Positions 1 through 16,871 of a DNA stretch of 25,392 nucleotides are shown one piece after another. The translations under genes were made by a program, and so were the position numbers. Every line of letters begins with the position of its first letter. The first letter of the stretch is position 1. Below the pieces are notes generated by a model. It ran no database searches. It had not been told where the DNA came from and was given only the letters and a program-made list of their open reading frames with translations. Where the stretch lies: positions 1 to 25,392 of the IMG/VR virus record IMGVR_UViG_3300047667_000496; one strand, 5' to 3'. This DNA comes from a virus.

Positions 1-3000
1 AGCCCAGCCTTGATTGGTCGTGAACAGGGAGGCAATGTTGAAATACTCCTGCGTTTGGTCATAGTCCCCATCCGGGTCCTGCATCGTGGACCAGTAGGGG
101 ATGCCCTGGGCAATCCGCGCTTGCTTGATGGTCTGTGAGATGGCGCCCTGTCCATCCAGGGCTCTGATGGTGGCCTCTGGGCGCGTCATGGGCTCGATTG
201 CCCCACGCATGGCTTGGCGCATGGCCAGCTTCCAGAAGCGCCAGAATGGGAGCAACGCGGCCCAGGCAGCACTGTCCCAGGCGCCAATGCCGTGCTTCCA
301 GTCGTACAGAGCATCACGCACAGCCTTCGTCGCCTCTGCCCGGGTGCCCCCCTGTTGCAGCACATCGAGGTAGAGCAACGCTCGCTGGCGCTGCTGGGCA
401 AGTCGGGCATGGTCGGCCAGGGCCTTCTGCCAGGACCCATCAACGCCTATCTTCTTGCCCACCTTCGACAGTATGCCCAGTTTGTCCCATCCAATCTCGT
501 CCCAACTGCGCAGCAACTCTTCAGAGACAATGTTGTCCATCACGCCGTCTCGGACAAGGAAGTCCCGCGCACGGTCATAGGTATAGAAGTCACCGGCAGC
601 GGTCTCCAAGTGCCCAGCCTTGCCGCTGAAGATGCGCCCGATGTGGGGGTTGATGAGCGCATTCATCAGTCCACCCAACACGGGCTTGCCCTTGAACTTC
701 ATGGACATCTCTGCCGCAGCATCGGAGATGTGGCGCCCCCAGGGAAGCAACGCGGGCACTGCCTGGAAGGACACTCGAGTCGCAGCCACAATGCCGCGCT
801 CCACCATCATCTGGCCCCAGTCTCCAATGAGCATGTTCGTCCAATACTTCGGGCGCGGGATGAGAATGCCCGTGACCTTGCCAATCTTCCAAAGCTGGAT
901 GTATGTGCGGAAGGCGTCACCAACTATGCCATTGGCAGATTCCTTCGAGGACCTGGCATCCAGTGTCTTGATGAGGTCAGCCACGGAGCCCTCGAGGGCG
1001 GTTGCCATCGCAGTCGGGATGTAGCCATAGCGGGACGCAGGCCCGAGTTCACCCGCACCTTTCAACCCTTGCAGCCCCGCAGTGCGGTCCAGAATCTCGA
1101 GGGCGTCTAGGCTACGCGCAGCCTTGCTCATCTGCTGGATGCCCGAGACGACTTCCGGTTCACGCTGGAAGAAGGTGATGCCTAGCTTCTGCATGACAGA
1201 GTGCCATGCGTCTAGGTCGTGAGCTCCTGGGGTCAGCCCATCAACCCACTTTGCCAGTGCCCGGGCTTCTTCCACAGAGAGGCCCCCAGCCAGACCTGCG
1301 GTGACTTCTTTGGTCGCTTGGCGCATGACCGACGCATGGGCGGCTGCACCGGCAAAGATACGCATGACACGGAGGTTCCGGTACTCGAAGTCGAACTTCA
1401 AGCTCTCCAGGCTGCGTAGCCCCTTGTCGATGACTTCTGCTCGAGTGCCGGGGTGAGAGGGTAGCGCACGGTCCATGCCGCCTGTGCTGCGCTGTATCTG
1501 GGTTGCCGCCATCTGTTTGTACCTGGCTAGGAACGCTTCAGGTGTGCGCCCCACAGCCCCTTGGAAGCCGCCGGTCTCTGTCAGCGCACGGTACGCAATG
1601 CCCAGCAGGTCGCTTTTGATGTCCTGGGGCAGCGATGTGCCTTCAGGCAGTGCAGCCCGGGCCAGGGCCTCGAGGGCCTTGTTGTCCCCCAGCTTGCGCT
1701 TTGCCCTCTTCATCTCCAGGGTGTACAGGACCAAGCGGTCCCAAGGAGCCAGACTGGACGAGGTGTTGAATAAGGTGGACTCGAGCACACCCGGGAGGCG
1801 TGCTGCATTGGGAATGTTGATAGCCCCGGTAGTTGTCATCCAGGCATCCAGATTCGCCAACAACATTCCGGGCTCTCTGAACACAGAGGCGTCCGTCAGG
1901 CGCCCTATCTCATGCCTGGCCCGTTCTGCCTTGTCTGACGCACCCCGGTATGTCTGATAGATGAACTCGGAGAAGTTGCCCATGCGCTGCTTGTCCACAG
2001 CGAAGCCATCAAGGGAGCCATAGACCCAGCGAGTCATCTGGCGCAGGCCCCGGCTGATGAGGTTTTCGTTGAGCGGGGCCCCGGGGTCATTGAGGTAGGT
2101 CCGCATGAGCAGGTCTGCCTGTTTTGCGGGTCCCACCTTCATCTGCTTGCGCACAATGTCCACTTGCTCCAGGCCCTCTTGGAGCAACTGAATCTGCTTC
2201 GGAGTGCGCCAACTGATTGCCTTGGGGGCCTCCATTGCCCTGCCGGGGAAGGGGATGGCACCCCCCGTGGCACTGTCCATGACCTCGAACAAGTAGCGCA
2301 TCTGATTGCTGCCACCTTGGCCCGCGCGTGATGCAGCTTCTTCCAACACACCTTCATCGAATGTCTTGCTGACCAGCCTGTTCAGTTCAGCAATGTCAAT
2401 GCCGACCTTGCCATCTTGTCTGCCCTTGAATGCAGCCTTGAGCAGCCCCCGGTGAGGCTGCGTGTCCAAGGGCTCGTCCATCATCTTCACAAAGGACCGG
2501 AGGGACTGGCCCCATTCCTTCGATGTACGGGCGAACGCTTCCTTGTACAACGCTGCCATGTCAATCTTGCCCGCGTTTGCCTGGACCTGGGTGTACATCT
2601 TTGCGTACTTGGTGGTAGCCTTGGCACTCCGAATGTCAGCTTTGGCCCACTTGCCCTTCTGCATCCGGGCTATCATCCGGTCCCGTACATTCAGTGCAGC
2701 CCGCAGCTTCTTGGCTTGCTTCACAGCATCCAATGCCCGGGCTTGCTCGAGGAGTTTGGCCCCCTGTTGCATCAGCCTGGCGCGCTCCTGGCTCGATGCG
2801 CCCAGTGCTTTCCTGATGGTGTCTTCAAGGGTGTCCCGCAGGCGTAGGGCTTGCTTCTGTGCAATGCCCAGGTTGTCCATCGCCGTAGTGAACTGGGGTG
2901 AAACCCTCCAGGGGGTGAGTGCCACCGGGCGCACCTTACCCGCATCGTCCATCTCAATCAGGCCCTTGCGGACTAGATTGTTCAGCACGCGCTTGTGAGT

Positions 3001-5343
3001 GCCCGGGGGTGGCGCCGCCCATTGTGGGGCATTTGCGATTGCCCGGTAGGCCTCGCGTTGGCCGCTGGACATTGATGGAAGCCTGGCAGCGTTTGTCTGC
3101 AGTCTGTCAGCCTGACGCTCGTACTTGGCGACTTGCTTATCTGCCGCGTCCGCAGTGCGGCGGATAGTTGCAATCTCCGGGGCACTCATCAGTTCCTTCA
3201 GCCTCGCGTCAATCGTGGCGAGCTCTGCCTTGACAGTCGCTTCGGTCACACCAGATGCAGCCCCTCCGATTCGGATGGTGGTAAACTCCGCGGCTTGGAC
3301 CCGGAGGCGCAATGCCTCTCGTTCAGCCAAGGCAGCAAACTGCTCTGCGTAGACTCGTTGGAGCGCAATGCCTTCAGCTTCAGCCGTCCCACGGGCAGCT
3401 GCGAGCTCCAAGTCCAATGCCATGACTGCGCTTTTGGCCACATCGGAAGCGTAAATCATGTCATTGACTGTCGCTGCTAGGCCCCCGTTGCCGTTCATCT
3501 TGGCCAGCACATCGAACTCAAAGATGTGTGATGCCGTTGGGCCCAAAGCTGTGGTGGCCCGCAGGTCAGCGAGCAATGCCTTCACCCCAACTCTTTGCTT
3601 CTCTGCCTTCAGGCGGGCAAGCACACCGGGCAATCCCTCACTGGCCACCAGGCTCTCCAGGGTGGGTGGCACCCCATCATCTCCAGCCATGCGCTCAAGT
3701 GCTCTGGCCATGCCGTCTTCTTCTGCCAGACGGGCCAGGACGGTGGGCGTGGCCTCGAGGGCACCCCCATCTGTGAGACGTGCAGTGACAGTAGCCATGT
3801 CTTCGGCACTACCCAAGCGAGACGGCACGTTGTCCATGAATGTCGCCAGCTTCGTCATGCGCGTGGCTACCAGCCCCTTCAAGCCTCCACGGATGGCACC
3901 ACCTGCCATACCAACGACGGGCCCGAAGATGTCGGGCTCTACCATTATGCCCATGAAGACCGCTGGCACACCGAGCCAAGCAGCTTCATTCCACGAGTCA
4001 TCCCTGTCACCCCATTCTGGATTGCCCAGTTGGCGCTTGACCGCGAGGCCTACTGGGATGGTAGCGTCGAAGGCATCCCCACCATCCATCAGGTACTTCT
4101 GAACCCGGTCAGAGTTGGCGAAGTCGTAGACGCTGATGCTGTCCACACCTTCATCTGGAGACAGCAGATGCAGGCCCAGTTGGCCCAAGAAGCCCGTGCT
4201 GTAGCGGGCCAAGCGATGTGTAGCCGCCCCTATGCTCTCCGATGCGCCATGCACACTGTCCGCTTCTGCCATGACAGACGCAGACAGCAAGGTAGTCATG
4301 CTGATGCGCCCCATCCAGTCAAGCACTCCGTTGTGCTTGAAGACGCGCCTGGTGCCCGACCGCTGATGCACAAACTGCTGCGATGGTGTTGCCATCGCCA
4401 GGAACGGACGGAACATCCACGGCGCACTCTTCACCCAAGCGTAGTGCCCTTCGGGGTCGTCAATGACGAAGGGAATGGCCAGGCCCGTGCCGGCCTTGAA
4501 GCGCATCATGGTCTCCCGGGCTGATGCCTCCGCTTGAGCCCGACGAGCACTGTCAGGCATGGCCGGGTTCTCACGAACCAGCCGGTCATATTGACTGGAG
4601 TAGTGGCGACGGAAGTATGCCCCCTCGTCGATGTAGACGCCATCCGGGCTCTGCGTCAGGTCCAGTGTCTCCCATGGGCTCTCTGGCCCCTCGCCTTCCG
4701 TGAGCCACATCGTGTCAGCCGGGTCACGCCCTGCTGCATTGTTGCGCTCCAGTAGGTCAGCACCCCAGGCTACCATCATCTCTGTCTGGGCCCGGGGGGT
4801 GCCATAATTGATGTTGCGTGCTTCTTCTTCCGTAGCACCCAGTGTCCTCGCTGCGTCGTAGCGGACGCGGTCATTGGCCTCCTCGATGCCGACTTGCTCT
4901 CCCCGAGCGGAGTACAAGTCTTGGACCCCCCGGGCCACCGTGTCTATGGTTGGCCGGTACAGGGGGTTCTTCGATGACGGGTTGCCCGTGAGTTCTTCAT
5001 AGAGCTCTGTCAAGAACCCTGGGAGCCCAGAGCGCAGCCCATAATTCAAAGTGCCCGAAGCTGGGTCATAGGGGGATGTCGTTAAGAGTGACGCTGCCCG
5101 TACCAGCTTCTTCCCCAACGAGGGGGCCTGCTGCTCTGTGCCCACGGGCTCCGAATACTCGGGCACTTCAGGGGCAGCGGGAGATTCAGGTGCCACGGTC
5201 TCTGGGGGTGCTGCCGCTACCGTTGCCCGCTGTGCATCACGCCGGGCAACGGCATCTTCCCGAGCCTTCCGGTCCCGCTCAATGCGGGCTTCCACCAACG
5301 CTGTCTGCTCTCTGGTGGTCTCGGCTAGGTTCGGGATGGGCAT
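1..5343 (-). CDS. giant internal virion (ejection) protein, 3' end beyond window
   Basis: The frame stays open from the ATG at 5343 to the left edge: 1781 residues without a stop. The N-terminal ~75 residues are charged then Pro/Ala-rich. Residues ~80-440 are mixed and contain a hydrophobic segment near 440-480 (AVFMGIMVEPDIFGPVVGMAGG). Residues ~540-760 are long charged helices. A possible winged-helix stretch is at ~759-809. Later regions are again helix-rich. Near 1493-1515 ILIPRPKYWTNMLIGDWG, and near 1699-1705 PFWRFWK, resemble motifs of giant phage polyvalent or internal proteins. T7 gp16 (1318 aa) and P22 gp16 occupy this last position. I see no lytic transglycosylase motif in the visible part. 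It is probably ejected to span the host envelope. Confidence 0.7.
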   Translation of the reverse strand, partial: MPIPNLAETTREQTALVEARIERDRKAREDAVARRDAQRATVAAAPPETVAPESPAAPEVPEYSEPVGTEQQAPSLGKKLVRAASLLTTSPYDPASGTLNYGLRSGLPGFLTELYEELTGNPSSKNPLYRPTIDTVARGVQDLYSARGEQVGIEEANDRVRYDAARTLGATEEEARNINYGTPRAQTEMMVAWGADLLERNNAAGRDPADTMWLTEGEGPESPWETLDLTQSPDGVYIDEGAYFRRHYSSQYDRLVRENPAMPDSARRAQAEASARETMMRFKAGTGLAIPFVIDDPEGHYAWVKSAPWMFRPFLAMATPSQQFVHQRSGTRRVFKHNGVLDWMGRISMTTLLSASVMAEADSVHGASESIGAATHRLARYSTGFLGQLGLHLLSPDEGVDSISVYDFANSDRVQKYLMDGGDAFDATIPVGLAVKRQLGNPEWGDRDDSWNEAAWLGVPAVFMGIMVEPDIFGPVVGMAGGAIRGGLKGLVATRMTKLATFMDNVPSRLGSAEDMATVTARLTDGGALEATPTVLARLAEEDGMARALERMAGDDGVPPTLESLVASEGLPGVLARLKAEKQRVGVKALLADLRATTALGPTASHIFEFDVLAKMNGNGGLAATVNDMIYASDVAKSAVMALDLELAAARGTAEAEGIALQRVYAEQFAALAEREALRLRVQAAEFTTIRIGGAASGVTEATVKAELATIDARLKELMSAPEIATIRRTADAADKQVAKYERQADRLQTNAARLPSMSSGQREAYRAIANAPQWAAPPPGTHKRVLNNLVRKGLIEMDDAGKVRPVALTPWRVSPQFTTAMDNLGIAQKQALRLRDTLEDTIRKALGASSQERARLMQQGAKLLEQARALDAVKQAKKLRAALNVRDRMIARMQKGKWAKADIRSAKATTKYAKMYTQVQANAGKIDMAALYKEAFARTSKEWGQSLRSFVKMMDEPLDTQPHRGLLKAAFKGRQDGKVGIDIAELNRLVSKTFDEGVLEEAASRAGQGGSNQMRYLFEVMDSATGGAIPFPGRAMEAPKAISWRTPKQIQLLQEGLEQVDIVRKQMKVGPAKQADLLMRTYLNDPGAPLNENLISRGLRQMTRWVYGSLDGFAVDKQRMGNFSEFIYQTYRGASDKAERARHEIGRLTDASVFREPGMLLANLDAWMTTTGAINIPNAARLPGVLESTLFNTSSSLAPWDRLVLYTLEMKRAKRKLGDNKALEALARAALPEGTSLPQDIKSDLLGIAYRALTETGGFQGAVGRTPEAFLARYKQMAATQIQRSTGGMDRALPSHPGTRAEVIDKGLRSLESLKFDFEYRNLRVMRIFAGAAAHASVMRQATKEVTAGLAGGLSVEEARALAKWVDGLTPGAHDLDAWHSVMQKLGITFFQREPEVVSGIQQMSKAARSLDALEILDRTAGLQGLKGAGELGPASRYGYIPTAMATALEGSVADLIKTLDARSSKESANGIVGDAFRTYIQLWKIGKVTGILIPRPKYWTNMLIGDWGQMMVERGIVAATRVSFQAVPALLPWGRHISDAAAEMSMKFKGKPVLGGLMNALINPHIGRIFSGKAGHLETAAGDFYTYDRARDFLVRDGVMDNIVSEELLRSWDEIGWDKLGILSKVGKKIGVDGSWQKALADHARLAQQRQRALLYLDVLQQGGTRAEATKAVRDALYDWKHGIGAWDSAAWAALLPFWRFWKLAMRQAMRGAIEPMTRPEATIRALDGQGAISQTIKQARIAQGIPYWSTMQDPDGDYDQTQEYFNIASLFTTNQGWA

Positions 5344-5346
5344 GGG

Positions 5347-7695
5347 CTACTCCAAAGGCTGGTCTGAATAAGGGTCATAGGGGTCTACCACGAGAGTCTT
5401 CGCATTGCGCTGCCTCTCTACTTGGCGCCTGATGGCTAGGGCTTCCATCCGTGCGGTCACAGCCCCCGTGGGGTCAGCGGCTTCTGCCAGCTGTGCCCCC
5501 CCGGGGCCAGGCGAGCCCGCGTCGTGGACAGATGTTCCCCTGCCCCTTGGCATCCCTGCATAGCCGCTGGGGCCCCGTGCGGAGGCCCGTTGGACAAGTT
5601 CTCCCGCATCCGTCAATACCTGCCCGCTGGAGAGCCAGTCAGAAAACCTGTGCGCACTTGTGGCACGGGGTGGCGACTCTGCGGCAGAATTGGCATCAGC
5701 ATACGCAGCCTGGGTGCGGGCCTCAATCTCCTTCTGTACAACATCAGCCATGCCCTCTGGAGGGTTCGTGCTTTCCCCTGCTGCCCCCGAACCCCCACGG
5801 GCGCTCGCTGCTGCAGCTTGGGTGTAGGCATCAATCGCTTGACGCTGGGCCGACGCGGTTCCTGCAGCATACATGGGAGCCTGCTCTGGCCCCTCCACTG
5901 CATTCGATGCGCCCTCATCTACAGCTTCAGCTTCATCGCCGCTAGAGGCCAATGCCCTTGCTGCACCCCCAACAGCGCCCCGCTGTGCCTCTTCTTCGGG
6001 AGCGTCAGCACCCGAGGGCACTGCTGAAGCCTCCGTGCTGCCCACACCCTCATTGCCCGTGCCGGCTGGTGCTGGGGCTTCGGGCGCCGTGGGGTAGTTG
6101 CCAGGGCCACTAAGTAGCTGGCGCCTGGTGGTGCTGGCAGCGTCACCCATGAGGTCCCTAGAGCCACGCCGGGTACGTTGACGGGCTGCGTGGGACTCGA
6201 TGCGCTCCATCTTCTCTGCTTTGTTGAGTGCAACACCGCGGTCAATCTCGTTTACGCTGACCCCTTGTTCCAAGGCTATTGACTCCATGAGAGGGAGCAA
6301 AGCGTCCGATTCACGCAGTGAGTCACGCTGGCCACGGACAGTGGTTGGGCGGTCCAAGGCTGCAATCTTGCCTTCAAGCTGTGCCTGCAAGGGCTTACCG
6401 AAGTTGGCAATCTCTTCTTCAAGCCTGGCGCGGCCCTCTCCCGCGTCGAAGAGTTCTGCAGCTTGCTCGAGATAGGCAGCGGTAGAGGTCCCGATGTCAT
6501 CAGACCTGCCGAAAGTCGAGATTTCCTGTAGCTTGGTCAACGCGGCATCAGCGGCTCTGCGGGATTCTGGCTGCAGCATGAGCGTGCCCGTGTTGGGGGG
6601 CAGTGGCTCTCCGTTTTCGTCCAGCAACACTTCGCCATCGTCACCACGAGGGGGCTCACCCAGGAGTGAGCCTAGATGGCGCCGGTCGGATTGCGTGCTT
6701 AGGACCACCTGGCCCCAGCCAGAGGTGACGCGGGAGCGCCCATCGGTGCCGCGCTCGCCTTGAGCTCGTGCTGCCTCTTCACGCCCAATGGCTTCTTCCA
6801 CACCAGGCAAGCTCTTTGCCCAACCCAGCATAGTAGCCCTGCCGCGTTCATCATTGGCAGGGAACGCGGCCCGCAACTGGGCCCCTGCTTTGTCACTCGT
6901 TGGGTCGTCTTCGTTTGCTGCGAACCATGCGTCGAAGGCTTCAACTAGTCGGGGGTCACCAGAGGTGGCGCCACCGCCGCCCAAAATGCCTGCCTCTAGC
7001 AGAGCGTCTTGTACGCCGGCATCAAGGTCCCAATACCGCCCTGCCACAGCCATGGTCGCACCGTAGGAAAGTTGCGCATCAGCCATGGCAGACCTACTAC
7101 TGTGCCCCTCCTGAATCATCTTGTTGGCCAGCATGGTCATAGCTAGGTCAGCAATCTGGGCCTGCCTGTCGTCCCCGGTTGTGAGCATCCCAGCACGCAG
7201 CTTGGCCCGCTCGGTCTCGAGCTCACCCAGTTGCTCCATGTACCCGGCTTGGAGCTCCGCACTGTTGTCAGCCCCTCCACGCTGGCGTGCCACGGCAACA
7301 CCGACAGGGGTGCCCGAAAGCGAGTCTCCCCCGGCTGTGATGCCACGGCGCACTTGCTCCATAGTGTGTCGCCGTCTGTCGATGCGCGCGAGCCGCAACT
7401 GGTTCATCAGGTCGCCACGAGACACGGGCCCACGGGCCAGGGCTTGTCGGGCTTCATGCTCTGTGGACGGTTCAAAAGGTTCATCAGGGTCAACCCAGTC
7501 GGGATTATCCACCTGTGCTGCTGCATCCCAGCGTTCGGCCCACCCCTCCGATGGGCCTCCCCGCTCTCCGAGTGCAGTCAGTTCATCAAGCTCCTCGAGG
7601 TCAGAGAACAATTCACCATTGGCGTTGTACAACTCTGGGTTGTTACGCTGATGAACTGCTTTGATTGCGGCCATGCGTTCTGCGTCTGTGGGCAT
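5347..7695 (-). CDS. putative internal virion (ejection) protein, 782 aa
   Basis: A large polar protein lies between the 157-aa gene and the giant gene, like T7 gp15 (747 aa) or P22 gp20 (471 aa). About residues 1-500 are mostly helical, with a Trp/Asp-rich stretch near 45-75 and Ala/Glu/Arg/Leu-rich repeats. From about residue 530 to 700 it is low-complexity Ala/Gly/Pro/Glu/Ser, probably disordered and flexible enough to pass the tail channel. No enzyme motif or signal peptide is seen. GGGAGG six bases before the ATG gives a strong ribosome site. The TAG stop is followed by one codon and then the giant gene's ATG in the same frame. Function rests on order and size. Confidence 0.62.
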   Translation of the reverse strand: MPTDAERMAAIKAVHQRNNPELYNANGELFSDLEELDELTALGERGGPSEGWAERWDAAAQVDNPDWVDPDEPFEPSTEHEARQALARGPVSRGDLMNQLRLARIDRRRHTMEQVRRGITAGGDSLSGTPVGVAVARQRGGADNSAELQAGYMEQLGELETERAKLRAGMLTTGDDRQAQIADLAMTMLANKMIQEGHSSRSAMADAQLSYGATMAVAGRYWDLDAGVQDALLEAGILGGGGATSGDPRLVEAFDAWFAANEDDPTSDKAGAQLRAAFPANDERGRATMLGWAKSLPGVEEAIGREEAARAQGERGTDGRSRVTSGWGQVVLSTQSDRRHLGSLLGEPPRGDDGEVLLDENGEPLPPNTGTLMLQPESRRAADAALTKLQEISTFGRSDDIGTSTAAYLEQAAELFDAGEGRARLEEEIANFGKPLQAQLEGKIAALDRPTTVRGQRDSLRESDALLPLMESIALEQGVSVNEIDRGVALNKAEKMERIESHAARQRTRRGSRDLMGDAASTTRRQLLSGPGNYPTAPEAPAPAGTGNEGVGSTEASAVPSGADAPEEEAQRGAVGGAARALASSGDEAEAVDEGASNAVEGPEQAPMYAAGTASAQRQAIDAYTQAAAASARGGSGAAGESTNPPEGMADVVQKEIEARTQAAYADANSAAESPPRATSAHRFSDWLSSGQVLTDAGELVQRASARGPSGYAGMPRGRGTSVHDAGSPGPGGAQLAEAADPTGAVTARMEALAIRRQVERQRNAKTLVVDPYDPYSDQPLE
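5350..5353 (-). promoter_or_regulatory. Shine-Dalgarno site of the giant gene
   Basis: GGAG lies six bases before the ATG at 5341-5343, inside the last sense codons of the 782-aa gene. This couples the two genes and supports the chosen start. Confidence 0.55.
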
Positions 7696-7710
7696 GATGC
7701 CTCCCTAAGT

Positions 7711-8184
7711 CTATGGGGTCAATACAGCGCCGGCAACAGAAGAGGCGGCTTCAACGCCCTTCAGAGCGAGCTCACCAGCGTACTGTGAGTTCTGGCGTCT
7801 GCGCTCCCGTTCACGCTCTGTAAGTGCGTAGGCCCGCTGCTTGCGGGCTTCTGCTGCTTGTGTAGCGATGTCATGGGCAGACATCTTGGCAGCAGCACCA
7901 GCTGATGCTGCTTGCTTGGCCAACCCGCGTTGAGCCACACCAGCAGCACCGGATGCCTGCACACCGGAGCCCATGTTCTGGCGTGTCATCTCACGTTGCT
8001 GGGCTGCGACCTGCTGTGATGCCCCGGTGGCTGCAGTGTTCGCGGCGCGCTCCACCTCACCCCGGTTGACACCCAGGCTGGCTTCGGCTTGACCTGAACG
8101 GAGGTTTGCCTTGTGTGCCTTCCTGGCTTTGAAGTTGCGCCCAGAGGCACCGCCGAAGTCACCCTTGTAGTAGTCGCCTGCCAT
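7711..8184 (-). CDS. putative internal virion (ejection) protein, 157 aa
   Basis: The protein is rich in Ala, Gln, Arg and Ser with almost no hydrophobic core, and looks like one long set of helices (about residues 20-145). There are many QAE/QRE and charged repeats such as RERERRR near 123-129. T7 gp14 (196 aa) and P22 gp7 (229 aa) are small helical proteins ejected ahead of two larger ones, in the same order as here. The C-terminal Ala/Val-rich end (AASSVAGAVLTP) could insert in a membrane. AGGAG sits six bases before the ATG. Role inferred from order, size and composition. Confidence 0.6.
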   Translation of the reverse strand: MAGDYYKGDFGGASGRNFKARKAHKANLRSGQAEASLGVNRGEVERAANTAATGASQQVAAQQREMTRQNMGSGVQASGAAGVAQRGLAKQAASAGAAAKMSAHDIATQAAEARKQRAYALTERERERRRQNSQYAGELALKGVEAASSVAGAVLTP

Positions 8185-8204
8185 GATGTCTCCTAGTGCG
8201 CTGC

Positions 8205-8642
8205 TTATGCGCTGACTGCCAGTTCGCCAACAGCTGCATGGAACTGGGCTTCGGCTACATTGTATAGGAATGTCACGGCGCAGAGACCTGCAGCCGGCAC
8301 GGTGCCCGCAACTCGCATACCCGTGGGGAACGTGAGCCCCCCTGTGGCCGCGATGGTGACAGTGACGTAGGCAGTGCCCGTGCCTGATGGGGCCAACTCG
8401 CGCGTCTCGGTGCCGACGTTCAGGGTGTAGTCCGTGCGCCCAGGTGCCGTGGTGGCGACAGCAACAGACGCAGCGTCAGTCAGTGCGCCACCATCAAGGG
8501 GTGTTGGGTCAGCGATGAGCTTGAGCCGGGTACCCAACTGGATAGTTGAACCCCACTTCTTCAAGGCGTGGATGGCATCGCCAGCTTTGACAGCGTTGTC
8601 TAGCATGGTCACGAGATTTGCCGGAATGTCTGCCAGGGGCAT
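8205..8642 (-). CDS. hypothetical virion protein, 145 aa
   Basis: This Ala/Thr/Val/Gly-rich protein has a short N-terminal helix (DIPANLVTMLDNAVKAGDAIHALKKW, trimmed here in function only) and a beta-rich rest (TAYVTVTIAATGG). The composition is like phage structural proteins. GGAGG lies six bases before the ATG. It sits between appendage genes and ejection genes. I recognise no family. A tail-tip or fibre-cap protein is possible. Its segment near 75-110 resembles a short Ig-like sandwich, but this is an impression only. Confidence 0.6.
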   Translation of the reverse strand: MPLADIPANLVTMLDNAVKAGDAIHALKKWGSTIQLGTRLKLIADPTPLDGGALTDAASVAVATTAPGRTDYTLNVGTETRELAPSGTGTAYVTVTIAATGGLTFPTGMRVAGTVPAAGLCAVTFLYNVAEAQFHAAVGELAVSA

Positions 8643-8657
8643 GGGGCCTCCAAAGTT

Positions 8658-9413
8658 TTACAAGGCTATGTACTTGATGTTGGTTGTCCGCGCCCGTGTT
8701 TGTCCGGGGCCCGTGGCGTCGGTGCGGCTGAAGGCCCCGGATGAATACATATCCAAGGAGTCCCCCGCGACAAAGAGGCCTGCCCGATGCCAGCCAGCAG
8801 ACATGCTTGTGATGAAGTGGTGGCCCGACCAGCGTTGGTCGAAGTGGGACAAGAGGTCAGCAGACTCTAGGTTTGAGCCAGCTGACACATTGGCAAGGAA
8901 GGCACGGCCACGGAGGGCACGGCGTTGCCAGCCATAGAAGGTGCCGTCGATGCCGAAGCGGAGGGCCCCGCATCTGTGGTCTGCGCGGACAGCTGGACTT
9001 ACATTCCCACAGTACGCATCGTTGGTGGCGTTGACCTGCCAACTGAACAGGACAGGACGGGCATGGGCTAAGTAGAACTCGACCATGCCACCGGGCAGTG
9101 GGATGAAAGCTGCAGGGTCATCTGCGATGGTCCCTGACTGGTGGCGCACGACATTGGAGCCCCCTGGCAATACGGACTGGAAGAGGTCACGGTTGACGGT
9201 GCAGCCCACCATCTTCGCTTCTGTGAACGTGCCTGGTTTGAACTTTCGAGCAGGCAACTCCACACCGGGTGCAAGGTTACCTGCGTCAAGCCTACCATTC
9301 TGCAACTCGAGCGACGTGGCTATCGAAGGGTCGTAAAGGTTCGCGCCCAGGGTGGCCGCGTCCGTCAGCACGCCCGAGACGAACACGTTCGTTATGGTGC
9401 CGATTCCTGCCAT
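8658..9413 (-). CDS. putative tail appendage protein C, 251 aa
   Basis: Third gene of the set. A hydrophobic beta-prone N-terminus (GTITNVFVSGVLTDAA) is followed by a Pro/Gly-rich middle and a C-terminal beta-rich domain with many aromatic and His residues (HHFITSMSAGWHRAGLFVAG). It ends in TRARTTNIKYIAL, a strand-like ending comparable in style to gene A. Two Cys are present in the middle. It is coupled to gene B by TGATG and followed by a 15-base gap. A receptor-binding or appendage role is inferred; homology to A and B is not proven by the sequence. Confidence 0.6.
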   Translation of the reverse strand: MAGIGTITNVFVSGVLTDAATLGANLYDPSIATSLELQNGRLDAGNLAPGVELPARKFKPGTFTEAKMVGCTVNRDLFQSVLPGGSNVVRHQSGTIADDPAAFIPLPGGMVEFYLAHARPVLFSWQVNATNDAYCGNVSPAVRADHRCGALRFGIDGTFYGWQRRALRGRAFLANVSAGSNLESADLLSHFDQRWSGHHFITSMSAGWHRAGLFVAGDSLDMYSSGAFSRTDATGPGQTRARTTNIKYIAL

Positions 9414-10216
9414 CAGGCATCTCCTGCGTGCAAGTGCAGCACTGTCATATGACTGGCACCCAGATACACTGTGCGCGCTATGGTGGCCGCGGCGGTAGCG
9501 TCAAACGTCAAGTTATTGCAGAGGGCCGAGACGACACGGATTCCGGTCAGATTGGTCATGCCCAGGTCAGTGAGGTCTTGTGCAGTCACCAAAGTAGCCA
9601 GGGGCACATCGTGAAAAGCGGGTGCATGGGATAGTATAACGCTAGTACCATCCCAGCCGGATACGGTTGTGGCGGACAAGTGGCGCACTGTACGGGGCAG
9701 CGTCTTCCATGTGTCTACGCCCGACACAAGACCGGAGATTTGGATGCCGAAGGCCGATGTGAGTGCATTGGATTGTGCCACCTGCTGGCCCGTGACTGCG
9801 GCATCGATATACCTGATGTGCAGCACTTCCACGTTGGCCCGCACAAAGGCTGCTGCAATCCTGTCCGCACCCGCCATGCCAAGAACGATGCCTGTCCAAG
9901 TAGTCTGCAGGGCATCACTAGATGAGTTGCCCACCACGCCCCAGCCGGGGTCGGTGCCCGCTGTGGACGCTGACATAGTGTCTGAATCGTCGGCTACCCA
10001 GGGGTTTGTGCGGGTGTCAATGATGTTGCCCTGCACTGTCTCCGTGAAGCTCGCCACCACAACATCAGCCCCAGTACCCCTGTGGGTGTGGTCCAGTGCT
10101 GCATCCTGTAGGGCATCAGCGGGGAGCCCGTCAATCCGGGCAACAATAGTAGCGAACCGTGAGTTCAACCCGCTGGCTGTGATGAAGTCGCCTGGCTGGT
10201 ATGCATCAAAGCTCAT
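9413..10216 (-). CDS. putative tail appendage protein B, 267 aa
   Basis: Second of the three-gene set. It begins with a short segment (YQPGDFITASGLNSRFATI) similar in style to a fibre attachment region, then a helical linker (IDGLPADALQDAALDHTHRG). The rest is Ala/Thr/Val/Ser-rich beta structure (HIRYIDAAVTG, GIRVVSALCNNLTF) and ends in HMTVLHLHAGDA. It overlaps the upstream gene by ATGA and the downstream gene by TGATG. It might be a trimeric fibre or needle subunit. No known receptor-binding or depolymerase motif is visible, so the role is only inferred. Confidence 0.6.
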   Translation of the reverse strand: MSFDAYQPGDFITASGLNSRFATIVARIDGLPADALQDAALDHTHRGTGADVVVASFTETVQGNIIDTRTNPWVADDSDTMSASTAGTDPGWGVVGNSSSDALQTTWTGIVLGMAGADRIAAAFVRANVEVLHIRYIDAAVTGQQVAQSNALTSAFGIQISGLVSGVDTWKTLPRTVRHLSATTVSGWDGTSVILSHAPAFHDVPLATLVTAQDLTDLGMTNLTGIRVVSALCNNLTFDATAAATIARTVYLGASHMTVLHLHAGDA

Positions 10217-10905
10217 CGCACCATCTCCCAGCCAATGACTTCACGCGAGAACACCGCGAACCTGTGCAGGGAAGGCGCGTACATCCTGGCAACGAGCTCT
10301 ACCACAACGTCCCCAGCATCAACAGGAATGACAGCGTCCAGCAGCACAGGGTACCGATTATGCGTGATGCCAGGAGACCACCTAACATCTTCGTCACCGG
10401 CAACTTGAAGGCCTCCTGGGGTGAACCCAATAGACATACTCTCATTGGCTCTGTCGGCTGTGCCCGATATGGTCTCTGGCACCAATGCACCGTTGATGCG
10501 GAGGGCAAAGTCCCAACCTGATGATGCGGCAGAGTAGTCCCCATAGGCGCCCGCAAGAGTCTCCAGTTGTATGCCCGCTTGGAAGGTCCAGATGATGTGC
10601 AGCATGGACTCACGGACATTCTGGAACGTATGGGTTTCCACCACGCTCCAGTCAGCATTGCTCTGCACTGTCAGGGCGTTGGCTGGAAGCGCACGGGCAC
10701 CGGGGGAGGCGTATGCCGCCGCTTGGTGCAGCTGTACAGCTACGTCGTCTGCCAGGTCCTCACGGTCGAAGGCTGAAGTGGCGAAATTGTGCTCGTTCAA
10801 CTGCCCATACAAGTCTTCTGTCATGGCGTAGAAGTTCTCGTTGAGGTCATCGAGGTCGAGGGGTTGGGTGTCTTTGATGACCCACTTCGGGTAGCGCCAG
10901 GTCAT
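10213..10905 (-). CDS. putative tail appendage protein A, 230 aa
   Basis: First of three consecutive, overlapping genes of 230-267 codons after the nozzle. The N-terminal ~45 residues (..LDLDDLNENFYAMTEDLYGQLNEHNF) look like an attachment helix pair such as those that anchor phage fibres to a tail. The C-terminal ~140 residues are beta-rich (VVVELVARMY, HRFAVFSREVIGWEMV) and resemble a jelly-roll-like tip. No enzymatic motif is seen. It overlaps the upstream gene and the next one by ATGA. A fibre, needle or head-tail appendage role is inferred from position and architecture. Confidence 0.6.
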   Translation of the reverse strand: MTWRYPKWVIKDTQPLDLDDLNENFYAMTEDLYGQLNEHNFATSAFDREDLADDVAVQLHQAAAYASPGARALPANALTVQSNADWSVVETHTFQNVRESMLHIIWTFQAGIQLETLAGAYGDYSAASSGWDFALRINGALVPETISGTADRANESMSIGFTPGGLQVAGDEDVRWSPGITHNRYPVLLDAVIPVDAGDVVVELVARMYAPSLHRFAVFSREVIGWEMVR

Positions 10906-13259
10906 CTTGGGGTCCTCAAACCGCTGTCACCCTTGGGGTTGTCTTCAACAGTCAATCCAATCACCTCTAGCCCCCGGGGGCTGCTGCTGGTTGCGGGGGA
11001 GGCCTCGATGCGTACACGGTAGACCTCACAGGAGGCTACGTCAATGTCGTACCGACGCCAGAAGGGGCGTCTGCGCTCCCACACTGCGCCTTCAGCATCC
11101 CATGCCGTCACACCCCACATGGACGGAATGTCGTCAGGGGGGATGAGGGCAAAGGGCTCAAGCTCGGGCTGACCGGAATAGACCTCGCCATTGGTCAGCT
11201 TCCAGTCCCGGAACACAGTGATTTTGGCATTCTGACTCGATGTCTCACGGAGCCAGAAGGATATAGACCGGGCAGACTTCCGAGTGCGCGATGCCCGGGC
11301 TTCTATCCAAGCTGTCTCGAAGATAGCTTGTGGCTCAATGATGTCCCAGCCTGTGACAGCATGGTCGAGCAGCCACACACCATTGTCACCCAATACTGTG
11401 TTACCCACGGCCAGCAGGTATTGCCTATGGTCTTGGGTGACGCAGATGTCAGTGGGGTACACACCGACCCGGTATGTGCGCCAGCCATCGCCTGAACTGT
11501 ACACGAGAGCAAGTGTGTTTGAATCGGCGCCGTCCAGGGGCAAGAAGCAACGGTACTCACCAGAGGTGGGGTCCACGACAGCTACAGATTGGACCCGGCG
11601 TGCTTTGTTGATGCCACGAAGTGTCGTCGCCTTGTCATCGGAGATGACAACCAGCATCTCTCCGTCCCAGGCCACGAAGCCATCACGGGCCAGCCAAACA
11701 GCACGACCGTCTTGGAGTGTGGCACAGCTGTTCGGCGCAACGCAGCCCAACGACGTATGGATGCGCCGCAGCACGAACTCACCGGATGAGTCTGATGGGG
11801 CCAGCAAGAAGGTAGAAGTCTCGGAGAAGACGAGCAGCCCGGAGGCGTGGGCCCACATGCCGCGAATCTCTTGGCCCTCGAGGTCTGGGTACCACACATC
11901 ATCACGCAGGAATGTGCCCCAGCGACCTGGCATGGAAGCCCGGAGTTGCCCCTGGTGTGTCAGGATGAACAACCGACCGAATGCCTTGCGGGCGAACGCA
12001 GCATCAGAGGGGAAGGAGATGACATCCTGGGCCTCACGCAGCAGCCAAGCATCCGGTGTGTTGTCGGGCCAGATGGTGTTGCTGTTGTCATTGAGTGTTG
12101 CGAAGCCCGTGGTGGTGGTCATCGCGTCTGCGGGGACCTCGTAAAACTTGTCCGTCCCCGCATTCTGCAGGTCCTTGGTGCGGTACAAGATACGACCTAA
12201 AGTGCGAGTAGGCCCAGGGTCGATGCCAGTCCAGAGCAAGTGCTTCAGCAGGTACTCCGTTGGATACGGGTCCTCTGTTGTATTCGCTGTGCGCGCCACC
12301 TTGTGGGGGTGCGCGGTCTGACGCAGGAAGCTCACATCAGCAGAGGGCCCGGAGAGGGGGGACAGGTTGCCCCAGCGGTCTACCCACTGTGTTGCTGCCC
12401 TGTACTGCCCAGCTTCCAAATAGCCCGCAGAGCTCCCGTATCGAGTGTAGTCTCGGGTAGCTCCGATAGTCTCAAACTCCATGGAGACATGCTCCTTTGA
12501 CATGGTCCCCACGCGCCCAAAGCCGAAGCTGGGGTGCATGGAAGTCTGAAAGCTCTCTTCTGGCTGGCCGAGGCTCCAAGTGCGTGGGTTGTCACTGCGC
12601 CAGGGCTCATTCGGGTTGCGGTCATGCGCGTAGCCCACAGTGTTCGGGTGCGTCCTGGCACTCACAGCCTGGGCCACGCTTGGGTGCCCCCCATCGGATG
12701 GAGTGGCGGGCCCGGAGCCTTCAGGGGGCGCTGGAGCCCTGGAGTAGCCTAGAGGTGCAATGCAGACGCCGTCGTAGAACAGAGCCCGACCACGGTAGGG
12801 AATGATGACGATGCCGTTGGGCATGACTTCAAACTGGGTGGCCCAGGCCACATCGTCCCCGTAGAGTAGCGTCTGGTTCAACTGGATTGCTGTGGCGCCC
12901 GAGGGGACCACCAATGCCTCCCAGTCGCGGGAGGCCCCCCGGAACACCCACAGCTGGTCATTGGTCTGCAGTAGGAGAATGTCACGGGAGTTGATGCGTG
13001 CGTGGCAGATACCGTGGGAGTAGTCTCCGTAAATCGTGGGCTTGGTTGTCCTGGGCGTACTGGAGTTGCCCGGGGCCCCTGGCCAACTGACATAGTCGGG
13101 CAACCAGGGGCAGAAGCCCGGGGTGCTGCGCATGGTGCCTTCAGCAGTCACGACCATGTTCTCGATGCGCCCGGCTACATCCGAGGGCACCAAGAACTTG
13201 TCACTCTCAACGCGGAGCACAAGCGGACCCGCTTTGTCACGATGGCGCGGGTCCGCCAT
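10902..13259 (-). CDS. tail nozzle (tail tubular protein B-like), 785 aa
   Basis: Nozzle proteins form the hexameric distal tube of short-tailed phages. The N-terminal segment at residues 31-50 (RIENMVVTAEGTMRSTPGFC) matches the pattern 'ENxxVT..G.xRxRPGF' typical of podovirus nozzle proteins such as T7 gp12 and P22 gp10. The remainder is rich in beta strands with repeated WxxY/F/GxxG segments, as expected for the beta-propeller of this family. The length of 785 is close to T7 gp12 (794). There is a Pro/Gly-rich loop at about 175-200. It follows the 113-aa gene by two bases and ends in ATGA overlap with the next gene. P22-type gene order supports the call. Confidence 0.78.
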   Translation of the reverse strand: MADPRHRDKAGPLVLRVESDKFLVPSDVAGRIENMVVTAEGTMRSTPGFCPWLPDYVSWPGAPGNSSTPRTTKPTIYGDYSHGICHARINSRDILLLQTNDQLWVFRGASRDWEALVVPSGATAIQLNQTLLYGDDVAWATQFEVMPNGIVIIPYRGRALFYDGVCIAPLGYSRAPAPPEGSGPATPSDGGHPSVAQAVSARTHPNTVGYAHDRNPNEPWRSDNPRTWSLGQPEESFQTSMHPSFGFGRVGTMSKEHVSMEFETIGATRDYTRYGSSAGYLEAGQYRAATQWVDRWGNLSPLSGPSADVSFLRQTAHPHKVARTANTTEDPYPTEYLLKHLLWTGIDPGPTRTLGRILYRTKDLQNAGTDKFYEVPADAMTTTTGFATLNDNSNTIWPDNTPDAWLLREAQDVISFPSDAAFARKAFGRLFILTHQGQLRASMPGRWGTFLRDDVWYPDLEGQEIRGMWAHASGLLVFSETSTFLLAPSDSSGEFVLRRIHTSLGCVAPNSCATLQDGRAVWLARDGFVAWDGEMLVVISDDKATTLRGINKARRVQSVAVVDPTSGEYRCFLPLDGADSNTLALVYSSGDGWRTYRVGVYPTDICVTQDHRQYLLAVGNTVLGDNGVWLLDHAVTGWDIIEPQAIFETAWIEARASRTRKSARSISFWLRETSSQNAKITVFRDWKLTNGEVYSGQPELEPFALIPPDDIPSMWGVTAWDAEGAVWERRRPFWRRYDIDVASCEVYRVRIEASPATSSSPRGLEVIGLTVEDNPKGDSGLRTPR

Positions 13260-13261
13260 GC

Positions 13262-13603
13262 TTACAGGTCCTCGATGGGGTCGTCGCTGGGGTTGCCGCT
13301 GGGTGTGGGCAACTCGTTGTCTTCCACCCTGACACAGATATCCGGGGCAGCACCGTTGAGGTCTGGGATGCCCGGGTAGGCGTCCCGCGCGTGCCGCTCC
13401 TGCACACAGATTTCCCAGGTGGCTTCAGCCAGGTCCTTCTCGCCCACCTGTTCATCTGGGTAGCCCTGGCGTTGCAGGGTGCAGAACAGGTGTCCGTTCT
13501 TGCGCTCCACGGGACCGATGGTGGCCCACTCTTCCCCTGATGGGGTCTTGCGTGTGATGATAGTGCCCGTAACGAGTAGGATACGGGGTTGCTTGTCTGC
13601 CAT
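13262..13603 (-). CDS. hypothetical protein, 113 aa
   Basis: A small protein sits between adaptor and nozzle genes, four bases after the former and two before the latter. The N-terminal ~55 residues look like a small beta fold (ILLVTGTIITRK, GHLFCTLQRQGY). The C-terminal ~30 residues are Pro/Asp/Asn-rich, acidic and probably disordered. Two cysteines are present without a metal-site pattern. I do not recognise a family. A purine-rich GAGAGAGAA stretch overlapping the adaptor 3' end is the likely ribosome site. Location suggests a tail-completion or minor tail protein. Confidence 0.65.
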   Translation of the reverse strand: MADKQPRILLVTGTIITRKTPSGEEWATIGPVERKNGHLFCTLQRQGYPDEQVGEKDLAEATWEICVQERHARDAYPGIPDLNGAAPDICVRVEDNELPTPSGNPSDDPIEDL

Positions 13604-13607
13604 GTTA

Positions 13608-15161
13608 CTATTCTCTCTCTAGTTGGTTGCGCCCAGTGAGACGGCGGCGCCTGCTCACCCTAGCCGGTTTTATCCGGGTCGGTTGCCCCGAGAATTGGCG
13701 CCCACCGATTCTGCGGCGCAGCAGTTGCAACTCTGCCTCGTAATCCATCTTCTTCCGGTCCACAGCATTCCAGTTGCCATCTTGTTCGTACATCCGCATC
13801 AGTGTGGCTGTGACCAAGATTTCAACGGCTTCATCGTAGACAGCAGGCGCATCTTGGTCATCGACCAGCACATCGGGCTGCCTTGCTGTACGGAGTTTGA
13901 TGACAAAGCGTTCATCGGGTGTAGGGTAGAGCGCCAGCCCGCGGTAGCTGCCAGAGTCCACCAGTCGGGCGCTTTGGTCCTGCAGTTTGCCCGTGTCTAG
14001 GAATACCGCTGCAGATTCGCGTTGCCCCAAGAGGTAGTAGGCATCATCAAACTCTTGCTCGGTGCCCCCCAGCGGTGCTGATGCGTCGGCTAGTGTCACA
14101 CGCTTCCGGTAGACGCGGATGTACACACCACTGCCACCGTAGTCCCTCAACAGTGCCGCGGTGCTTCTGGCGTGGCCCAGGAAGAAGTCTATGTTGGGTA
14201 GGAGAAGTTCTGGGCATTGGGCACCCCGAGTCACCGTGAACAACTCGCTTTCAGGTGAGGCTTCAGACTCCCAAAGTGGTTCGGCAAAGTCTGAAGTTTC
14301 CATCCCAGTGGAGGGCCGTGCGCCCCAGGCGTAGGTGATTTTGTACCTGAATGAGCCGGCTGGCGTGTCCCCATCCCAGGTGAAGCCCCCAACAAAACCG
14401 GCCACAGCCCGCTTGGGTGAATCCATGTCAAAGTTTGCACGCCAGAAAACAGAGTTGGGCATCCCGCCCACGCCAAAGCGGGGGCCATCTGTGACCCCCA
14501 TGTTCTCCGCAGTCTCTTGTGTCAGAATGGTCAGAGGCCATTGGCGCAGGTCGTTGACGATGCGTGCCGACTTGACCTCAACCACATCTCTTGGCAGGTA
14601 CAGCGTGTTCTCGTACAACCTGTAGGCGAAGCTGGTGCCCGTGGGGACAGGCTGGTCGAGCACAATGGCCTGGTGGATATGCCCCGCTGTGTTCTCTGCG
14701 AAGGTGCTGGTGGGCAGGTCAAATACGGCGCTGACTTTGTAGATGCGCCAATCCCCGGTAGCCACCTCTATCTCCAGGGTGCGCCCGTCCATGGTCCCAT
14801 CCACAGGCCACGCATTGGCCCGTGTGGTGGAGTCAATCTGCATGTCGCGGATGACAACATGGTTGTCCGCAGCGGTGTGCGAGGTGAACGTCGTGCCCGC
14901 GTAGGGTGTGACACCATCGGCCAAGGCCCCAGTGTTCGTGGCCGATGCAGTGCCACTGAACGTGGTGTTGCCACTGTCAAACCCAGCTTGGGTAACCAGC
15001 GTGTGCTCTGCCTGGAAGAAGGCAAAGGGGGCGTCCAGCACGAGTCGGTTCAGGGCCCGCTGGATGGCACCGTTGACCTTCCGCTTGGCCTCTGCAGACG
15101 AGCTCGGGGACCAGTCCAACTGGTCGAACACTGCCTGTCTGATTGCTTTCAATGTCGCCAT
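13608..15161 (-). CDS. head-to-tail adaptor-like protein with large insertion, 517 aa
   Basis: Adaptor proteins bind below the portal and connect it to the nozzle. The N-terminus (ATLKAIRQAVFDQLDW, then a helix with NGAIQRALNRL) and the C-terminal helical element at about 440-485 (AVEILVTATLMRMYEQDGNW, then YEAELQLLRRR) are the style of phage adaptor and tail-tubular-A proteins. The position before a nozzle-like gene agrees. T7 gp11 (196 aa) and P22 gp4 (166 aa) are far shorter. The extra length is beta-rich: residues 60-190, and a segment at about 255-395 that looks like a fibronectin or Ig-type domain (GSFRYKITYAWG, VYIRVYRKRV). The final 30 residues are strongly basic. It is the first gene after the terminator. 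Confidence 0.65.
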   Translation of the reverse strand: MATLKAIRQAVFDQLDWSPSSSAEAKRKVNGAIQRALNRLVLDAPFAFFQAEHTLVTQAGFDSGNTTFSGTASATNTGALADGVTPYAGTTFTSHTAADNHVVIRDMQIDSTTRANAWPVDGTMDGRTLEIEVATGDWRIYKVSAVFDLPTSTFAENTAGHIHQAIVLDQPVPTGTSFAYRLYENTLYLPRDVVEVKSARIVNDLRQWPLTILTQETAENMGVTDGPRFGVGGMPNSVFWRANFDMDSPKRAVAGFVGGFTWDGDTPAGSFRYKITYAWGARPSTGMETSDFAEPLWESEASPESELFTVTRGAQCPELLLPNIDFFLGHARSTAALLRDYGGSGVYIRVYRKRVTLADASAPLGGTEQEFDDAYYLLGQRESAAVFLDTGKLQDQSARLVDSGSYRGLALYPTPDERFVIKLRTARQPDVLVDDQDAPAVYDEAVEILVTATLMRMYEQDGNWNAVDRKKMDYEAELQLLRRRIGGRQFSGQPTRIKPARVSRRRRLTGRNQLERE

Positions 15162-15187
15162 GAGTCACCCTGTGTCAGATAGTAACC

Positions 15188-15228
15188 TAAAGCAAAGCCC
15201 CCGTGGGCCAAAGGACCGACGAGGGCTT
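15188..15228 (-). terminator. intrinsic terminator between head and tail genes
   Basis: On the minus strand AAGCCCTCGT pairs with the ACGGGGGCTT side over ten base pairs (one G-U). After one mismatch a further four pairs close a CTTT loop. The 34-base stem-loop (15195-15228) is followed by TGCTTTA. It begins 17 bases after the TAG of the probable decoration gene. The G+C-rich stem with a short T-rich tail fits a rho-independent terminator. The tail is short, so partial read-through is likely. Confidence 0.75.
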
Positions 15229-15245
15229 GAGCTCACCGCGACAGA

Positions 15246-15773
15246 CTACCCGCGGCAGTCAAGGAAGCACAGGCCCAGGGCGGTGCTTGCTGCGTCGGCG
15301 AGTCCGGTGGCGAAAGGCCCGGCCAGGTGGACTTCAGTGATGGCAGTGTTGGCGTCCACCAGGGGGGTCACTGGGTCCTGGCCGGCGCCTGCGACTGCCT
15401 TTGAGACGTAGACGCCTTTGTCCACTTCAATCGTCTCTGAACCTGCAAGGACAGAGCCCTTGCCGGTGCGGAGGATGAAGCCATAGGAGCCCGCAGCAAT
15501 GGCGTGCTGGGCAACTCCGAGGATTCGATTCGACGGTGTACTCACAGGGGCAATGATGCCGCCGTAGGTGCCGGTTGCAGCCTTGCGCGCCACGACCTGG
15601 CCCACGACCCAAGCGGTCGAAGCCTCTTCATTCTTGACGTAGACCCAGACGTGTTCGCCCGTGTCTTGGTCAGCGCCAGCAGATGTCGATGGTGCAACCA
15701 GGCACGCGCCAAGTGGTGCCTGCGCAGTAGTGGTGACATCGGTAACGTCGATGCCGAACATTGTCTGACTCAT
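15246..15773 (-). CDS. probable capsid decoration or minor head protein, 175 aa
   Basis: The protein is Ala/Gly/Thr/Val-rich and looks mostly beta-strand, with no catalytic motif or membrane helix. The segment at about 40-70 (VWVYVKNEEASTAWVVGQVVA) and the later GYGFILRTGKG-like strand look like a small beta-barrel. It follows the major capsid gene by 30 bases and has a GGAG six bases before the ATG. It is the last gene before a terminator, so it belongs to the head transcription unit. Many phages encode a shell-stabilising or decoration protein here. A head-fibre base or head-completion protein are the alternatives. The function is inferred from position and fold impression. Confidence 0.6.
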   Translation of the reverse strand: MSQTMFGIDVTDVTTTAQAPLGACLVAPSTSAGADQDTGEHVWVYVKNEEASTAWVVGQVVARKAATGTYGGIIAPVSTPSNRILGVAQHAIAAGSYGFILRTGKGSVLAGSETIEVDKGVYVSKAVAGAGQDPVTPLVDANTAITEVHLAGPFATGLADAASTALGLCFLDCRG

Positions 15774-15785
15774 TGGAAACTCCGT

Positions 15786-15804
15786 ATCCAGCCTATGACT
15801 GGAT
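15786..15804 (-). other. small hairpin after the capsid gene
   Basis: Six-base arms ATCCAG (15799-15804) and CTGGAT (15786-15791) enclose a seven-base loop in the transcript. The hairpin starts at the last base of the capsid TAA stop. No U-tract follows, so it is not an intrinsic terminator; it may stabilise the capsid mRNA end. Confidence 0.4.
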
Positions 15805-16871
15805 TAAGCTGTGGCTCCACCGGTCACTAGAGCGTTGCGGCGCAAGTGGTCACAGTAGAAGTTCATGTTGAGGATGATGCGGTAGCGCACCATATCGCCG
15901 TCAGGGAGGTCAATTGGACCTTCGACAACGAAGTCACCCTTGGTCTCTGGGCCCGCGCCACCCTTGGTCCACTTCTGCCAGCTGGCAGTGTGAAGCATGT
16001 AGCAGACGCCATTGGCGGCGTTGTCGGCGAACTGGTCCAACTGAATGGAGTCCTCGAGGTACATCATGGCGTTCATAAAGGCGATGCCTTGGCGAACGTC
16101 ATTGGGGGCACTGTCACCGCTGACCTTGCCATTGACCACGCGAACTTGGTCATCGAGGTCATCGAGGTAGTTCAGGTAGGTGCCTTCATCGGCCAGGAGG
16201 AGGTCTACCAGGCCATCCGTCTTCGAGCCTTGACGGGAAGCGGCGTAGTACGCCTTGCGCAACTGGCGCCGGCCATCAGAGCCAAAGCCCGTGATGTTGG
16301 CGTACTGGTGGTTCCAGCCATCTACCGCGGCCTTGTCGAGACCGAAGACAGTGCCGGTCTGGAGACCGGTGGCCTCTGGCTTGAAGACGCCAGCGCGGCT
16401 GGTGCCATCAGGGGAGTAGGTGGCGTTGCCGTTCAGGGTCATAAACCCACTGACATCTTCACCATTGCCCGATGCGACCTGATTGCTGATGCGCTCGTGG
16501 AAGTCCGACAGGGCGGTCTCCGGGTAACGCTTGATGAGTTGCACCAAGTCTTGCTTGCCATTGGCGTCAGCAAGGTCCTTCTTGGGTACATCGAAGACGT
16601 AGATTTGACGGGGTGCGTAGGCGTTGCCCTTGATGGCATTCTGCCGGCGTCCGCCACGAACGAGCTCGGAGCCCGAGTTGATTTGTGTCACGCGGCCAGG
16701 ACCGCCAGTGACAACCGCGAACTCACGGTATGGTCCTTGGCCTTGGCTGTTCGGCACGTTGCCGCGAAGAACCACATTCTCCATGAGAGGATGCCACTTG
16801 GTGAACATCTCACTGTAGCCGGGGGTCAACTCTTGGAGGACAGAGGCGAATACGTCTGGGCTGATGGCCAT
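15804..16871 (-). CDS. major capsid protein, 355 aa
   Basis: This is the coat protein forming the icosahedral shell, presumably with an HK97-type fold as in all tailed phages. Evidence is its place directly after scaffold, typical length of 355 residues, and composition: mixed alpha/beta, rich in Asn, Gly and Asp, no membrane segment. An N-terminal helical region with the LMENVVLRG strand is followed by an R/G/N-rich stretch near residues 65-85 that may correspond to the E-loop. Helices follow at about 95-125 and 200-270. A good GGAG lies five bases before the ATG. It is followed by a small hairpin and the probable decoration gene. I cannot place it in a named capsid subfamily from motifs alone. 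Confidence 0.88.
   Translation of the reverse strand: MAISPDVFASVLQELTPGYSEMFTKWHPLMENVVLRGNVPNSQGQGPYREFAVVTGGPGRVTQINSGSELVRGGRRQNAIKGNAYAPRQIYVFDVPKKDLADANGKQDLVQLIKRYPETALSDFHERISNQVASGNGEDVSGFMTLNGNATYSPDGTSRAGVFKPEATGLQTGTVFGLDKAAVDGWNHQYANITGFGSDGRRQLRKAYYAASRQGSKTDGLVDLLLADEGTYLNYLDDLDDQVRVVNGKVSGDSAPNDVRQGIAFMNAMMYLEDSIQLDQFADNAANGVCYMLHTASWQKWTKGGAGPETKGDFVVEGPIDLPDGDMVRYRIILNMNFYCDHLRRNALVTGGATA

Follow-up and report, generated by a model that had tools for sequence, protein, structure and literature searches.

Gene order at the locus

The window, the whole stretch of DNA analysed here, is the complete IMG/VR record IMGVR_UViG_3300047667_000496 of 25,392 bases, and the contig ends inside a giant gene. 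From the terminase towards the giant, the order is terminase large subunit, portal/head-tail adaptor, a scaffold-like gene, major capsid protein, a 517-aa tail protein, and a 785-aa structural protein. Next come four small structural genes and, ahead of the giant itself, genes of 157 and 782 aa. The genes used in this work are the following.

21492-23246, minus strand: terminase large subunit (phrog_2), the query for finding relatives
19224-21047, minus strand: portal/head-tail adaptor (phrog_332)
15804-16871, minus strand: major capsid protein (phrog_9953)
13608-15161, minus strand: 517-aa tail protein (phrog_10775), tail-tube-A-like
10902-13259, minus strand: 785-aa virion structural protein (phrog_3287), tail-tube-B-like by position
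8658-9413, minus strand: 251-aa structural gene that has homologues in most relatives and serves as a syntenic anchor
7711-8184, minus strand: 157-aa gene, resembling gp14 in position and size alone
5347-7695, minus strand: 782-aa gene directly upstream of the giant, gp15-like by position only
1-5343, minus strand: giant ejection-type gene, with its ATG at 5343 and its stop 235 codons past the window edge

Neither the 157-aa nor the 782-aa protein has a family match. The 782-aa protein is rich in Ala, Glu, Gly and Arg, and BLAST finds no homologue of it in the relatives, though a similarly sized gene usually occupies that slot. Between the portal and scaffold genes, a small zinc-ribbon protein is encoded at 18106-18489 on the minus strand (Zn_ribbon_8, E 1.5e-4, below the cut-off); the relative G002 has a similar-looking gene near its portal gene.

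The giant starts 3 nt past the stop of the 782-aa gene, and its frame is open from 5343 to position 1, with 1781 codons free of stops and a codon-position GC that is uniform along the visible length. When viral contigs are searched with the protein, one other carries the gene: a sister contig, IMGVR_UViG_3300049783_000569 (42,112 bases), that has zero mismatches to window positions 1-15343 and extends the frame to a stop. The complete giant has 2016 aa (L002:10001-16051). The sequence-only reading had proposed this unbroken frame, a length about 460 residues above that of T7 gp16, and recovery of the left flank as a check. The frame is correct on the full evidence, and the protein is bigger than the visible part showed: 460 is right for that part, and the full excess is 698 residues (T7 gp16 has 1318 aa). 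A stop codon or assembly error inside 1-5343 was looked for and none was found; local assembly error is excluded because about 25 other complete homologous giant ORFs exist.

On the sister contig, a 138-aa gene follows the giant. Further on lie small genes and an amidase, then a replication block in the opposite orientation that includes a family A DNA polymerase. That polymerase (L007:13868-16705, minus strand; 33868-36705 of IMGVR_UViG_3300049783_000569; Pfam DNA_pol_A, E 4.6e-36) is a fusion, with a uracil-DNA-glycosylase superfamily domain (UDG, E 6e-6) ahead of the polymerase part.

A family of giants in uncultured phages

Relatives were first reached via the terminase alignment. Two encode giants that are 31-36% identical to the window's over its C-terminal part, and an alignment of that part led to further viral contigs and one contig in a proteobacterial MAG; two additional search rounds brought about a dozen more members. 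Approximately 35 uncultured phage contigs carry giant homologues at the same locus, after a tail-tube gene, a small gene and a gene of 530-1030 residues. Complete members have 1893-3698 residues, mostly 1890-2110, taking the first possible start codon in each case. Many relatives keep the order tail-tube-B, gp230, x, gp251, a gene of 150-270 aa, a gene of 530-1030 aa, giant, ds138. The member in the proteobacterial MAG (L135, JAERSQ010000243.1) sits on a 57-kb contig and gives a weak host hint.

The window's giant has no match in Pfam, PHROGs, PDB sequences, 50,697 annotated phage records, or bacterial genomes. A second family member used as query likewise has no match among the phage records, so the family is known here only from uncultured phages.

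The conserved C-terminal core

Conservation within the giant is concentrated at about residues 1440-1750. We distinguish the following features.

34-1023, minus strand: conserved C-terminal core, LPD38-like (residues 1441-1770)
817-852, minus strand: core motif 1, PKYWTNMLIGDW (residues 1498-1509); family consensus PNPRYWTNNIxGDF
229-249, minus strand: core motif 3, PFWRFWK (residues 1699-1705), after ALYDWKHG
1-2313, minus strand: visible part of the region modelled with AlphaFold (residues 1011-2016), mainly helical, pTM 0.69
3889-3966, minus strand: moderately hydrophobic segment with a conserved EPD motif (residues 460-485), a candidate membrane-contact segment

The core has 14 invariant columns across 21 homologues, with Y1500, N1503, Q1511, Q1650, Q1653, R1654, Y1680, W1682, F1700 and R1702 among its invariant residues. 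The 21 sequences share, in this order, TGLxxPNPRYWTNNIxGDFSQMW, HAxxVQQRQRxxLYxDLxxxGxxRxEAxxxTxxALYDWKHG and PFWRFWRLAxKQ. Both PKYWTNMLIGDW and PFWRFWK, which the first reading had singled out as motifs reminiscent of polyvalent phage proteins, exceed chance because they lie within this core. The front half is poorly conserved and mostly helical. Its EPD segment (near residue 470) is semi-conserved; it is hydrophobic in several members, but few have it above the transmembrane threshold. No clear transmembrane helix is predicted in the window's giant, EPD segment included.

The AlphaFold model of the C-terminal region was built with a 36-sequence alignment. The model of the front half has a pTM of 0.27, and neither it nor its matches to coiled-coil and tape-measure proteins are used here. 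Against the PDB, the C-terminal model has no credible match (best E 0.086; best VIA Z 4.6); those fold searches returned only unrelated helical proteins, and the C-terminal region may still have a known fold. Among predicted viral structures, 23 match the C-terminal model at E 1e-3 or better (Foldseek/BFVD). Most of the named ones are annotated as "large polyvalent protein associated domain" proteins; others carry ART-PolyVal, LT_GEWL/transglycosylase or zeta-toxin names. One LPD38-named model matches with E 1.2e-5, probability 1.00, but with a TM of about 0.3 over the whole multi-domain model.

We compared the core with an LPD38 profile made of regions from prophages and phages, with 16 sequences in its final form (phage sources include Burkholderia JC1, Thalassomonas BA3, Pelagibacter HTVC010P, Bacteroides BKO1-TP3 and the archaeal virus MetMV). 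HHalign scores of the core are 23-27 against the first LPD38 sequences and 36.0 and 39.6 against the 16, with both motif blocks aligned collinearly. Controls with reversed profiles and with other giant families score 25 or less. The maxima for 200 block-shuffled profiles are 32.1 and 35.6, and none of the 200 reaches the real scores (Z 4.5 and 4.6). HHalign's own probability for this comparison is just 11-15%, no family member reaches the Pfam cut-off for LPD38 (PF18857), and LPD38 is not significant by HMMER alone. With the HHalign probability this low and the Pfam cut-off not reached, we call the core LPD38-like without assigning it to the LPD38 family. By these profile and model comparisons, the core looks like a diverged relation of the LPD38 end found in DarB-like giant virion proteins, and the suspected polyvalent-protein resemblance is borne out for the C-terminal end. 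LPD38 itself has been reported exclusively from polyvalent proteins of the phage type (PMC5512222).

Domains ahead of the core in relatives

The window's giant has no recognised enzyme or effector domain in Pfam or PHROGs and no HExxH zincin. The lack of a transglycosylase motif, noticed in the visible part, extends to the complete protein, which has no lytic transglycosylase match in either collection. Most family forms of about 2000 aa are likewise without a recognised effector domain.

Several longer relatives have domains ahead of the core. G002 (3534 aa) has DUF7178 and a zincin, VSTVLHELGHVFRRD, homologous to those of BPP-1 Bbp10, Pseudomonas phage AF AF_016, and others. At L131:1214-11818 (IMGVR_UViG_3300025141_000180), a relative of 3534 aa combines DUF7178 (PF23802) with a Bbp10-type zincin in a single chain. 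L114 (2421 aa) has a zincin, VVVHELLHAATTRR, that is different from that of G002 and matches the internal virion protein in PDB 9sfn chain G (E 7.7e-9). L114 also matches phrog_2206, the N4-type virion RNA polymerase family (we take the domain layout of the N4 polymerase from PMC12633501). This match is via the zincin region and not the polymerase, and L114 was dropped as a candidate N4-like RNA polymerase carrier; phrog_2206 matches L114 alone, and no single-chain RNA polymerase domain was found in the family. Candidate HExxH motifs occur in L123, L154, L155 and L168. The largest member (L165:980-12076, 3698 aa) has more than 1000 extra residues before the core, without HExxH.

Comparison with named giant virion proteins

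A close parallel for the C-terminal end is JC1 gp69, a Bcep22-like DarB-like giant of 4515 aa from a Burkholderia phage, with LPD38 (PF18857) at its C-terminus (residues 4195-4401). It has been detected in purified virions by mass spectrometry with 51 unique peptides (PMC9144972). The two giants have in common a locus ending the virion genes and a C-terminal end with collinear motifs. They differ in that the front of gp69 carries LT-like, YtxK-like, HepA-like and LPD3 regions, none of which is recognised in the window's giant, and in that the latter falls below Pfam's LPD38 cut-off.

T7 gp16 (internal virion protein D) has the same place, last and largest in its cassette behind the tail-tube genes, whereas the giant exceeds it by those 698 residues, has no transglycosylase match, and has no detectable sequence homology to it: hmmsearch and HHalign against gp16 proteins give no signal. 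Homology of the giant to N4 gp50, phiKMV-type gp37, Bbp10 and the P-SSP7/HTVC011P type was also tested, and none was detected. Bbp10 of Bordetella phage BPP-1 and AF_016 (phrog_9880, LPD22, PBECR1/LPD23, zincin) are of the same locus and size class and share a zincin with G002, but the core has no match to their C-terminal half, and the giant lacks both zincin and LPD22. Coliphage N4 gp50, the virion RNA polymerase of 3500 aa, is also a giant ejection protein; its link to this family is the zincin of L114, that is, the phrog_2206 zincin part in one member, and its polymerase domain is not found in the family. The phiKMV-type internal virion protein (PDB 9sfn chain G, 1337 aa; phikF77 ORF37) has a zincin homologous to that of L114 and the same cassette position, and does not match the window's giant itself. 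Similar cassette orders are found in T7 gp14-gp15-gp16, in BPP-1, and in Pseudomonas phage AF, which has internal virion proteins A and B, a structural lysozyme, and a 2213-aa giant.

Proposed role of the giant

The giant is the last and largest gene of a gp14-gp15-gp16-like cassette after the tail-tube genes, the position of the T7 gp16 type. The small-medium-large cassette behind those genes is conserved in relatives, in agreement with the three-gene ejection module recognised in the first reading. We infer that the giant is, with high probability, the largest ejection protein of a short-tailed phage, which would be packaged in the head and enter the host with the DNA. Position, size, gene order and the LPD38-like end combine in favour of packaging and ejection as the best reading. 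The earlier interpretation as an ejection protein with polyvalent character is partly supported: by the place in the cassette, the absence of a recognisable transglycosylase and the polyvalent-like end. Homology to T7 gp16 finds no support.

In T7, the largest ejection protein sits above the portal and, once ejected, forms a complex at the inner membrane (PMC12633501). The giant would most likely reside above the portal inside the head, leave through the tail ahead of or together with the DNA alongside the products of the two upstream genes, and end up at or across the inner membrane. We infer this membrane role, and also a division of labour along the chain. The front half, about 1000 helical and probably coiled-coil-rich residues, is probably an extended scaffold; relatives have additional protease or other domains ahead of the core. 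The LPD38-like end is probably the shared packaging and translocation part, which the head and tail machinery would recognise; this assignment to the C-terminal end follows from conservation, since all members keep the end while the front varies. Tentatively, and at somewhat less than an even chance, this end may be a common packaging-and-translocation module, such that the family links T7-type cassettes to DarB-like polyvalent giants, with effector and protease domains as optional cargo on a bare carrier of about 2000 residues.

Alternatively, the giant could act mainly as a polyvalent effector carrier that is injected to shield the phage's DNA or to modify its host, with a minor part in the DNA channel. 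An anti-restriction role has reportedly been proposed for DarB. The resemblance of the C-terminal end to LPD38 polyvalent proteins and the zincin and DUF7178 domains of relatives are consistent with this. Like phage polyvalent proteins, the giant is encoded with virion genes. Several biochemically unlike domains per chain, another mark of such proteins, are not found in the window's giant with Pfam or PHROGs; the absence of a recognised effector domain there and in most forms of about 2000 aa, together with the strict gp16 position of the gene, makes this alternative rather unlikely.

That the giant is a true, extremely diverged member of the T7 gp16/internal virion protein D family that has lost its transglycosylase would account for the shared cassette position and small-medium-large order, and distant ejection-protein homologues, which are hard to align, are often paired by size and synteny (review PMC8954989). 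T7 gp16, phikF77 ORF37 and a P-SSP7/Syn5/HTVC011P profile give no signal above controls, however, and we regard such descent as improbable. The small genes and amidase that come after the giant would suit a non-virion, lysis or tail-fibre protein merely situated behind the structural genes; the family-conserved gene order, the lack of a fibre-like or enzyme domain, and the resemblance to packaged giants leave this with a slim chance. Finally, an assembly or frame artefact, conceivable for a metagenomic contig terminating within the gene, is already refuted by the identical and complete second contig, the uniform codon signal, and the many complete homologous ORFs.

Giant ejection and virion proteins are already known (N4 gp50, JC1 gp69, and the Bbp10 type). 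New here is an unnamed family from uncultured phages that has a diverged LPD38-like end, a bare form without a recognised enzyme, and protease-bearing relatives. For annotators, the core motifs offer a sequence signature by which to recognise a giant gene without a name in Pfam or PHROGs. To our knowledge, the LPD38 end of DarB-like giants has no tested role. Natural minimal members (about 1900-2050 aa) and domain-bearing members (up to 3698 aa) share one conserved end, and they allow testing which part serves head entry and tail passage. The family bears on how phages package proteins of 200-400 kDa and thread them through a narrow tail.
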